A stretch of 64,000 nt of DNA from Halobacteriovorax marinus (GTDB lineage: Bacteria > Bdellovibrionota > Bacteriovoracia > Bacteriovoracales > Bacteriovoracaceae). The notes under the pieces are model-generated. The model did no database searches and was not told the DNA's origin. It worked only from the letters and a program-made list of their open reading frames with translations. The stretch is from assembly GCA_002163155.1 (NCBI GenBank), contig MAAO01000016.1:186001-250000 (forward strand), in the 5' to 3' direction. Position numbers and translations under genes: made by a program. Each line of letters starts with the position of its first letter. Position 1 is the stretch's first letter. Positions 39,498 to 42,344 of the stretch are shown in pieces.

Positions 39498-39537
39498 AAT
39501 ATTACACGAGAATCAACTATAGGTTGGTCTAGTGTTT

Positions 39538-39556
39538 AAAGTGGCAGTGTCACTTT
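39538..39556. promoter_or_regulatory. 19-bp palindrome, operator-like
   Basis: AAAGTGGCAGTGTCACTTT is symmetric at 16 of 18 arm positions around its central base. The length and form are those of a binding site for a dimeric regulator. Confidence 0.5.
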
Positions 39557-39570
39557 GATACTTTCTTATA

Positions 39571-39603
39571 CTTACATTTCGCTTACACTTTACTTACATT
39601 TCA
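39571..39603 (+). repeat. Three tandem 11-bp repeats (CTTACAYTTNN)
   Basis: CTTACATTTCG, CTTACACTTTA and CTTACATTTCA follow one another without gaps, then a partial CTTGAG. An 11-bp period places each copy on nearly the same DNA face, as in protein-binding iterons. Confidence 0.55.
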
Positions 39604-39702
39604 CTTGAGAAATAGGTCGTTTTATTTATGTTTTCTTAAGGAATTGTTAGCAAAAAGTCTGTAATAAGTTTTAAGAAAGAGGATCTTAGTAAAGAGCCTA
39701 TT

Positions 39703-39884
39703 TGTGAATAACTTTTATTATTTTGTGGATACATCTTGTCGCGGCAAGTAAATTTGTTTCATGGTGTTAAAAAGCTTATTATAAAGCACTGAAAATACGA
39801 CCTTCTAAAGAAGTTTTAATTGACATCAAATAATTGACATTAGAAGTAGGTCATTGTGGATAACTAGCTCAGTTTTGTGAGTAA
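39703..39884 (-). promoter_or_regulatory. Two duplicated pairs of DnaA boxes
   Basis: All boxes read on the minus strand. Exact TTATNCACA boxes lie at 39703-39711 (TTATTCACA) and 39855-39863 (TTATCCACA). Each is followed 21 bp further by a one-mismatch box, at 39724-39732 (GTATCCACA) and 39876-39884 (TTACTCACA). The pairs belong to an imperfect direct duplication of about 35 bp: TTGTGnATAACT, 7 bp, TTTTGTG. The minus strand downstream of the TTATCCACA box reads CTA CTT CTA after a 5-nt spacer, reminiscent of DnaA-trio elements, then becomes AT-rich. Confidence 0.6.
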
Positions 39885-39999
39885 AACATCGTTGTCAACT
39901 AAATATTTGAAGAAAATAAATTTTTTTTACAGGTTTATATTAGATGAGCATTGCAGTAAATATTAAGTTGAGCTTAAGGAAATATTATGGAGGAATACC

Positions 40000-40752
40000 A
40001 TGTTGTCAGATGAAAAGTTAGATATTCTAAGGAAAGGGGTGTCAGAAATTGTCAAAAAGAGAGTTAACCCATTGTCTTTATCGGATTCTCTGAAGATTTC
40101 ACAAAAGTCAGATTTATCAATTGTTACAATTGTGGATACGGAAATTTCAGATTTTATACATTTTCAACTTAGTGCACTAATTAAAACGCAGGGCTTCCAT
40201 TTCTTTAGTGAAGAAGATCCCCAGAGTTTTGGTTTTCCTTCAATTATCCTAGATCCAATAGATGGAACAAGAGAGCTTGCTAAGGGTTTGGGGGAGTGTG
40301 TTGTTTCTCTAGCTATAATGCAGACAGCCAGCACAGGTAGTGCTTGGATATACAATCCTTTTACTGGTTTCGAGATAACTTCAGGTCAGCCCTTCGTAGA
40401 TGCGGTGACATTCAATGAAGATAGGTTGTTTGGATATGTATCTAGAAGTGATATGAAGAAGGGTTTACTAAGTCATATAGAAGATGTTGAAGGTGTTCAT
40501 GTGGAACCCAGAGGGAGCATTGCTTTTAAATTAGCTCTATTGGCCAGTGGAGCCTGTGACTTTGTATACTCAAAGACTCCTAAGAACGTTTGGGACATTG
40601 CTGCAGGAACACTCTTGTGTTGGGAGAGGGGCTTTAAGTTATTTCAGGGCGATACTGAGATAGTTTCTTTAGATTGTGAAAGAGTGTCGGGAGAACTGAT
40701 CTGGTGTAGAGAAAAGGACTTTGAACGTCTTCGAAATTCACTAGTGAATTAA
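40000..40752 (+). CDS. Inositol monophosphatase-family phosphatase (CysQ-like)
   Basis: A Mg2+-dependent phosphatase of the IMPase/3'(2'),5'-bisphosphate nucleotidase superfamily. The metal ligands appear in SEED (about residues 70-73) and DPIDGT (85-90), and the C-terminal VWDIAAG motif is present near 203. Length (250) is typical. It could degrade PAP from sulfate assimilation or act on inositol phosphates; the sequence alone does not say. A TATGGAGGAATACC ribosome-binding site precedes the ATG. It follows the motif-rich region, which may contain its promoter. Confidence 0.85.
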   Translation: MLSDEKLDILRKGVSEIVKKRVNPLSLSDSLKISQKSDLSIVTIVDTEISDFIHFQLSALIKTQGFHFFSEEDPQSFGFPSIILDPIDGTRELAKGLGECVVSLAIMQTASTGSAWIYNPFTGFEITSGQPFVDAVTFNEDRLFGYVSRSDMKKGLLSHIEDVEGVHVEPRGSIAFKLALLASGACDFVYSKTPKNVWDIAAGTLLCWERGFKLFQGDTEIVSLDCERVSGELIWCREKDFERLRNSLVN

Positions 40753-40822
40753 AGTCTTTTAATATTTAAGATTTTTTTACCATTTGTCCCCGAACGATTA
40801 CAACGTAGTTAAAGGGGGCAAA

Positions 40823-41734
40823 ATGCAAGCATTATACGATTCCAAATTTCCTATTCTCATCCAGGGTGAGACGGGGACAGGTAAGACATCCCTTGCCAAG
40901 AAAATACACAAGAATTCAATTTATAGAGAAAGGCCCTTTGTTCACTGTAATTTAGCCGGCTTATCTGACTCTCTTTTTGATAGTGAGCTCTTTGGTCATG
41001 TTAAGGGTGCTTTTACTGGAGCCATTGAGAATAGAGTTGGCTTCTGCGATCGTGTTGGAGAAGGAACACTATTTTTTGATGAAATAGGGGATATAAGCCT
41101 TATTCAGCAGAAGAAGTTACTGCAAATTCTAGATAATGGTGAATATTACGGGGTGGGAAGTTCAAATAGTAAAATTTTTAACGGTAGATTTATATTTGCG
41201 ACCCACAGAGATTTGGAGCAACTCATAAGGCAAAAGAAATTCAGAGAAGATTTGTTCTATAGGCTAGGAGGACAAGCGATATCTCTTAGATCATTTTCGC
41301 GAAGAAGTTATGAGGAAAAGTTTAAGTTTATTGAAGAGAAGTTTGGCGAGATATTTTCGAAATATGGAATAAAGACCATTGGAGTTTCTGAGAGCTGTAT
41401 CGAGAGTATGGCCAATTATGGTTGGCCTGGAAATTATAGAGAAATTGATAAAACCATTGAGCTGTTAGTCTTAAAAAATGTAAGGAGAAGCATAGAATTG
41501 TGTCACTTGCCTGAGAGATTTGCTGGAAATTCTTTGGGCGAAGGTGAGCTAAAGAGGCAGGTTTCTACATTGGAGAGAAAAATTATCATAAATGAGGTTG
41601 TAAATAAGGGCATAGGTATAAATAAAGCCTCGAAATCATTGGGTATAAGTAAAACCACCTTAATTGCAAAATTGCGTAAATATGGTATTAGTGGGCACAC
41701 TGAAAAACAAAAAATTCGAATAACAGCAGCTTAA
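40823..41734 (+). CDS. Sigma-54-dependent activator lacking a sensory domain
   Basis: An AAA+ enhancer-binding protein: Walker A GETGTGKTSL near residue 17, the sigma-54 contact motif GAFTGA, Walker B LFFDEIG, and an arginine-finger region (FREDLFYRL). The C-terminus carries a Fis-type helix-turn-helix (INKASKSLGISKTTLIAKL). No receiver, GAF or other sensor domain precedes the AAA+ part, so activity must be set by partner proteins or expression, as for PspF. The ATG at 40823 has a GGGGG ribosome-binding site; the frame starts upstream at a TTG at 40784. Confidence 0.9.
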   Translation: MQALYDSKFPILIQGETGTGKTSLAKKIHKNSIYRERPFVHCNLAGLSDSLFDSELFGHVKGAFTGAIENRVGFCDRVGEGTLFFDEIGDISLIQQKKLLQILDNGEYYGVGSSNSKIFNGRFIFATHRDLEQLIRQKKFREDLFYRLGGQAISLRSFSRRSYEEKFKFIEEKFGEIFSKYGIKTIGVSESCIESMANYGWPGNYREIDKTIELLVLKNVRRSIELCHLPERFAGNSLGEGELKRQVSTLERKIIINEVVNKGIGINKASKSLGISKTTLIAKLRKYGISGHTEKQKIRITAA

Positions 41735-41750
41735 AAGTTATGGAGCTATT

Positions 41751-42344
41751 ATGAGCTTTAAAGTTAAAGATCACTATTATGAAAAAGCCAAGAAAGAGGA
41801 TTTCTTAGCTAGAAGTGTTTATAAATTAGAAGAAATAGATAAGAAATTTAAAGTGATTTCAAAGGGTGATGTGGTTGTTGATTTTGGATATCATCCAGGT
41901 TCTTGGTCACAGTATACGAGTCGAAAAATTGGACCTGATGGAAAACTCATCGGAATTGATATTCGTCCCTTAAATAAGAAACTTTTAACATTAAAAAATG
42001 TCTCATTATTTGAAAAAGATATCTTTGATGTTGATGAAACAGGACAACTAGGTGCAGACTCCAAATTTGATGTAGTATTATCAGATATGGCCCCTAATAC
42101 AACAGGAATTAGATCCGTTGATCAGGATAGAAGTTTGAATCTTGTTGAAAAAGTTTTTGACGTTTTGCCTGTTTTCTTAAAGGAAAATGGAAATTTAGTT
42201 ATTAAAGTTTTTGATAGTCAGCAAGCACAAAAATTCTTAAAAGAAAATAAAAACCTATTTAAGCAATATGACTTCTTAAAGCCTAAATCTACGCGCTCTG
42301 TAAGCAAAGAATTCTTTGTCATTGGCCGTGGTTATAAGGCATAA
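41751..42344 (+). CDS. rlmE: RlmE, 23S rRNA 2'-O-methyltransferase (FtsJ)
   Basis: Methylates U2552 of 23S rRNA during late ribosome assembly. The SAM loop is DFGYHPGSW; in FtsJ/RlmE the equivalent is DLGxxPGgw. The K-D-K-E catalytic tetrad is visible: K in SVYKLEEI, D in LSDMAPNTTG, K in VIKVF, E in SVSKEFFVI. The 197-residue length is normal. A GGAG ribosome-binding site precedes the ATG. Confidence 0.93.
   Translation: MSFKVKDHYYEKAKKEDFLARSVYKLEEIDKKFKVISKGDVVVDFGYHPGSWSQYTSRKIGPDGKLIGIDIRPLNKKLLTLKNVSLFEKDIFDVDETGQLGADSKFDVVLSDMAPNTTGIRSVDQDRSLNLVEKVFDVLPVFLKENGNLVIKVFDSQQAQKFLKENKNLFKQYDFLKPKSTRSVSKEFFVIGRGYKA

Follow-up and report, generated by a model that had tools for sequence, protein, structure and literature searches.

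What do four predicted DnaA boxes do in a gene-free region of the Halobacteriovorax marinus genome: are they an origin of replication, a second initiation site, a site that titrates DnaA, or a promoter under DnaA control? These four options had been left open by a first-pass annotation of the window, the 64,000-nucleotide stretch of DNA that was analyzed (C5:186001-250000 of the source genome, G000). How sites other than oriC control DnaA is understood in detail mainly for E. coli and in part for B. subtilis, and a literature search turned up no paper linking Bacteriovorax to DnaA boxes. Members of the Bacteriovorax group are predatory bacteria. A family-wide element of fixed architecture in Bdellovibrionota would show extra-oriC DnaA loci in another phylum, and it would provide a single 210-bp target for separating titration from control of the DnaA state in a group with a predatory life cycle.

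The DnaA boxes and their surroundings

The boxes are located at C5:225.7 kb and, as had been described, all four are on the minus strand, two being exact and two having one mismatch (Table 1). Their starts have offsets of 0, 21, 152 and 173 bp, which confirmed the distance of 21 bp within each pair and gave 152 bp from pair to pair. The direct duplication of TTGTGnATAACT was also recovered, at 39702-39713 and 39854-39865. The region is gene-free in that no open reading frame of at least 60 aa is present between 39498 and 39999. The absence of a replication gene nearby was correct for the window, but the contig does carry dnaA and dnaN, at a distance of ∼99 kb. Two further features were seen ahead of box 1: a terminator-like hairpin at 39536-39558, 3' of the 72-aa open reading frame, and, at 39571-39598, three copies of CTTACA (TGTAAG on the minus strand) that are exactly 11 bp apart and ∼110 bp before the box.

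Table 1. Features of the element and of its gene neighborhood (window coordinates).
Feature	Position	Strand	Remarks
Membrane protein, 501 aa	37693..39198	+	Unnamed family; left flank, nearly always adjoins the element
Small protein, 72 aa	39279..39497	+	No Pfam or NCBIfam match; conserved beside the element in many genera, not in all relatives
Whole conserved element	39699..39906		Matched by model R1
DnaA box 1	39703..39711	-	TTATTCACA; strong; within TTGTGAATAACT
DnaA box 2	39724..39732	-	GTATCCACA; weak, 1 mismatch; kept only in the source genus and a few others
Inter-pair spacer	39733..39854		Length largely fixed; sequence not conserved beyond the genus; no conserved RNA fold
DnaA box 3	39855..39863	-	TTATCCACA; strong; within TTGTGGATAACT
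DnaA box 4	39876..39884	-	TTACTCACA; 1 mismatch, weak in the source genus; TTATCCACA or TTATCAACA in other genera
GTCAA motif	39894..39898	+	18 bp from the start of box 4
Inositol-monophosphatase-family protein (CysQ-like)	40000..40752	+	PF00459, E 1.4e-20; first downstream gene in the source genome
Sigma-54-interacting AAA+ activator, Fis-type HTH	40784..41734	+	PF00158, E 1.6e-51
RlmE/FtsJ-type 23S rRNA methyltransferase	41751..42344	+	PF01728, E 4.3e-44; usual right-hand anchor of the syntenic block

Conservation within Bacteriovoracaceae

The DNA upstream of the phosphatase gene was compared among relatives. The box offsets were identical in all four congeners and showed small changes in six other genera. 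In an alignment of 11 loci the core TGTGgATAACT-N10-TGTGgaTAAAA-N7-GTCAA was nearly invariant, with GTCAA itself invariant in all 11 sequences, and the flanking DNA was poorly conserved. The AT-rich stretch, the inverted repeat and the CTA-CTT-CTA series, which had been proposed to resemble DnaA-trios, did not hold up, as none of them was conserved in this alignment. A fold comparison yielded no consensus base pairs (0) and no Rfam match scored above the gathering threshold, on which grounds a structured RNA element was rejected.

A sequence-only model of the second box pair (R1) was built from the 11 loci. It matched the source genome with E-values of 1.9e-14 and 2.2e-4 and nowhere else in that genome, and it matched 84 of the 129 family genomes (E ≤0.01), the match usually being unique within a genome apart from weak matches at oriC. 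Sixty-eight family loci were inspected and 67, from 66 genomes, were accepted as the element, i.e., it was found in about half of the 129 Bacteriovoracaceae genomes searched. A four-box pattern with 156 bp in place of the 152-bp distance, and thus off by 4 bp, matched none of the 129 genomes and serves as a negative control. Among the 67 accepted loci, GTCAA stood at exactly the same offset in 40, and the first box group was degenerate in ∼19, mostly in genus g24.

Box percentages and spacing counts were determined on the 48 better-preserved aligned loci. Boxes 1 and 3 had at most one mismatch in 98% of these and were exact DnaA boxes in 85%, while at most one mismatch was found in 92% for box 4 and in 23% for box 2. 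The distance from box 1 to box 3 was 152 bp in 15 loci, 151 bp in 11, 147-150 bp in 16, 153-154 bp in two and 120-142 bp in four; by genus, it was 150-154 bp in 11 of 17 and 147-154 bp in most. The conserved core consists of boxes 1, 3 and 4, and box 2, the DnaA-trios, the inverted repeat and the RNA fold are outside it. Because box 2 is rarely kept and boxes 1, 3 and 4 are retained together with GTCAA, the original picture of two equal pairs is best replaced by one in which a strong box and a spacer of fixed length are followed by a second strong box, a weaker box and GTCAA. Of 62 related loci, 22 also had a plus-strand TGTAAG beyond the second box pair, with a fixed offset in genus g14.

In other families the matches were only weak and short, and the two that were inspected had no syntenic context. 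The exact core pattern was present in seven records among 84,980 species, all of them Bacteriovoracaceae records or MAGs (two are labeled only Deltaproteobacteria or Oligoflexia), and it was absent from every other group in this set. Judged by these searches, the element is lineage-specific to Bacteriovoracaceae. Its GTCAA motif is previously undescribed.

With few exceptions, the element in the accepted loci was flanked by the membrane-protein gene on one side and the rlmE operon on the other. The first downstream gene varied by genus and could be the phosphatase, the sigma-54 activator, rlmE or another gene, and the element was retained in loci that lack the phosphatase, sigma-54 activator or small-protein gene. 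A tie to the phosphatase gene only was ruled out, as the element was present without it in six loci (L069, L079, L084, L085, L088, and L100). The distance to the next start codon ranged from ∼10 to ∼190 bp, with constant internal spacing. In one genome (G113) the block of membrane-protein gene, element, phosphatase gene and rlmE occurred twice on different contigs (L103 and L115), which may be a duplication or an assembly contamination. Several lineages (G009, G026, G032, and G034) kept the neighboring genes and lacked the element. For G026, a weak group of boxes at C19:280.8 kb was considered as a relocated copy and rejected, since it has another geometry and lies partly in open reading frames. 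No box group was found in G032 besides the one beside dnaA, which is very dense (L134, G032:C61:118123-118331; nine boxes, none with more than one mismatch, within 200 bp).

Candidate roles in DnaA control and transcription

In 17 genomes dnaA and the element were on one contig. In 16 of these the element was on the dnaN side of dnaA, in the same orientation and 89-187 kb away (99.6 kb in the source genome), and in the remaining one (G102) it was inverted and 49 kb away on the opposite side. By a modest balance of probability, the element appears to be a lineage-specific, oriC-proximal DnaA-binding locus that would sequester DnaA or alter its nucleotide state, of the datA or DnaA-box-cluster type. 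This reading is favored because the internal spacing is fixed while the downstream gene and the distance to its start codon vary. The element would probably help to time chromosome copying or to control the adjoining operon. DnaA, probably as ATP-DnaA given that strong and weak boxes alternate, would occupy boxes 1 and 3 and extend cooperatively to box 4, and the fixed spacing of ∼152 bp would permit both sites to be joined in one looped or wrapped complex. As an early-copied locus, it would be doubled soon after initiation and would then draw off free DnaA or shift its ATP/ADP state, damping re-initiation in a manner like that of the B. subtilis clusters or E. coli datA; the neighboring operon may additionally be affected. 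Against such a role, there are only three to four boxes per chromosome copy, which is few for pure titration, and several lineages have the genes without the element. Furthermore, the gene block is syntenic, and the constant distance to oriC may therefore reflect inherited gene order and not selection for position.

In E. coli, datA promotes DnaA-ATP hydrolysis and its deletion leads to over-initiation, while the three-box core of DARS promotes ADP release. The datA locus lies near oriC and has constrained box spacing (PMC4585315), and the element resembles it as a non-coding locus outside oriC, present once per chromosome, whose DnaA boxes are conserved and constrained in their spacing. At the distances given above it is also close to oriC and would be early replicated. 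It differs in that datA has five boxes and an essential IHF site, whereas the element has three to four boxes that share an orientation and are spaced by 152 bp and 21 bp, an extra GTCAA and another gene context. The source genome has four HU/IHF-family genes. In 11 of 14 spacers, IHF-like sites did not exceed the level of shuffled sequence; an IHF-dependent architecture was accordingly not favored, and the scarcity of such sites counts somewhat against the sink reading. DARS1 and DARS2 are small intergenic box groups with a three-box core and fixed spacers (PMC4585315). The element is likewise a small intergenic group with three core boxes, but the boxes are arranged differently, it is without demonstrated Fis or IHF sites, and it is close to oriC whereas the DARS are located farther along the chromosome arm.

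In B. subtilis, as reviewed in PMC5295017 and PMC13220808, the joint removal of six DnaA-box clusters outside oriC advances initiation, and re-adding one cluster partly relieves the early initiation (on Okumura et al., 2012). A local excess of DnaA boxes outside oriC, as expected of such a cluster, was found at the element, which may thus be akin to the oriC-proximal clusters; there are six clusters in B. subtilis as against one element in Bacteriovoracaceae. Box pairs that are used together are also known from the E. coli ChIP-seq regulon, where the double DnaA boxes are 2-3 bp apart (PMC11317965); pairing is common to both, but the element leaves 12 bp between the boxes of a pair. More speculatively, and with a rather low probability, the element could represent a new, Bacteriovoracaceae-specific class of DnaA regulatory locus, in which box groups ∼14.5 helical turns apart would be looped together with a GTCAA-reading partner protein to time re-initiation.

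The main rival, which we regard as a serious but somewhat less than probable explanation, is that binding of DnaA to the array would repress or activate transcription of the operon that follows (phosphatase, sigma-54 activator, rlmE, and a penicillin-binding-like protein) and would thereby couple it to the replication cycle, the spacing serving repression by looping. DnaA is already known as a transcription factor (PMC8203912). Like a promoter region, the element was in every case upstream of an operon and never within genes or elsewhere, which counts against a sink and for a promoter. In the large genus g24 the second pair is only ∼10-35 bp ahead of the phosphatase start codon, and lineages in which the membrane-protein and phosphatase genes directly adjoin were found to lack the element. 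However, the first downstream gene differs by genus and the distance from box to start codon varies widely whereas the internal spacing does not, and a simple operator would need less than a pair of strong sites far apart and a further weak site. In addition, inspection by eye revealed no -35/-10 pair that kept a constant distance from the boxes, and a promoter scan of the element region was at shuffle level. Sequestration or state switching of DnaA and control of the operon both fit, and both may hold. The two corresponding options of the first-pass annotation, a DnaA-titrating site and a DnaA-regulated promoter, are both strengthened by the family-wide conservation.

Other binding proteins, replication origin and chance

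It is improbable that the element is a site for a different protein, either a second DnaA-like protein or a GTCAA-reading factor, to which the likeness to DnaA boxes would be secondary. The source genome does encode a second protein with AAA+ and DnaA box-binding domains (L002, G000:C1:1080999-1084439; open reading frame at ∼1291-2457, 388 aa), and in the alignment of 11 loci GTCAA varied no more than the boxes did. Against this, no second DnaA-like protein was detected in G008, G019, and G030 despite their strong elements, and boxes 1 and 3 match the DnaA box exactly in 85% of loci. The second protein is present in ∼17 family genomes, including all congeners searched, and is not universal.

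That the element is oriC or a second DnaA-dependent initiation site is very improbable. It does combine DnaA boxes with an AT-rich flank, and the 21-bp pair motif weakly matches the oriC of four relatives (G019, G006, G022, and G082). The dnaA gene of the source genome is at C5:125.4-126.4 kb and is followed by a box-rich, AT-rich gap and then dnaN, and the cumulative GC-skew minimum was at C5:128.8 kb (128811), with no skew turn at the element. In G001 the skew minimum was 0.7 kb from base 1, adjoining dnaA. For Bdellovibrio, experiments have placed oriC in the dnaA-dnaN gap, and the corresponding location was predicted for Halobacteriovorax (PMC5124646, in which titration is not mentioned). 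The gap and the skew minimum (C5:126.4-128.8 kb) thus refute the suggestion of oriC, and a second initiation site found no support, since neither a conserved unwinding element nor DnaA-trios were present at the element in the 11-locus alignment. Two findings had been named beforehand that would jointly refute the first-pass annotation: an origin placed elsewhere by GC skew, which was indeed what we found, and a lack of box conservation in relatives, which was clearly not the case.

A chance cluster without function is consistent with box totals near chance in the window and the genome but has a negligible probability, as it is already refuted by some 17 genera that have kept both sequence and spacing. 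The window contained 85 boxes against 85.4 expected, single boxes were not commoner than in shuffles, and exact TTATNCACA was only slightly in excess genome-wide (194 vs. 158 for the reversed control). With window totals at chance level, only the clustering is therefore unusual. On the 357-kb contig C5, the top two 200-bp windows by box score were the dnaA-dnaN gap and the element locus; of 2000 uniform redistributions, 35 attained such a score. In G001, a relative whose genome is near-complete, three of the 40 exact TTATCCACA sites fell within 217 bp at the element, where 1.2e-4 such triples would be expected.
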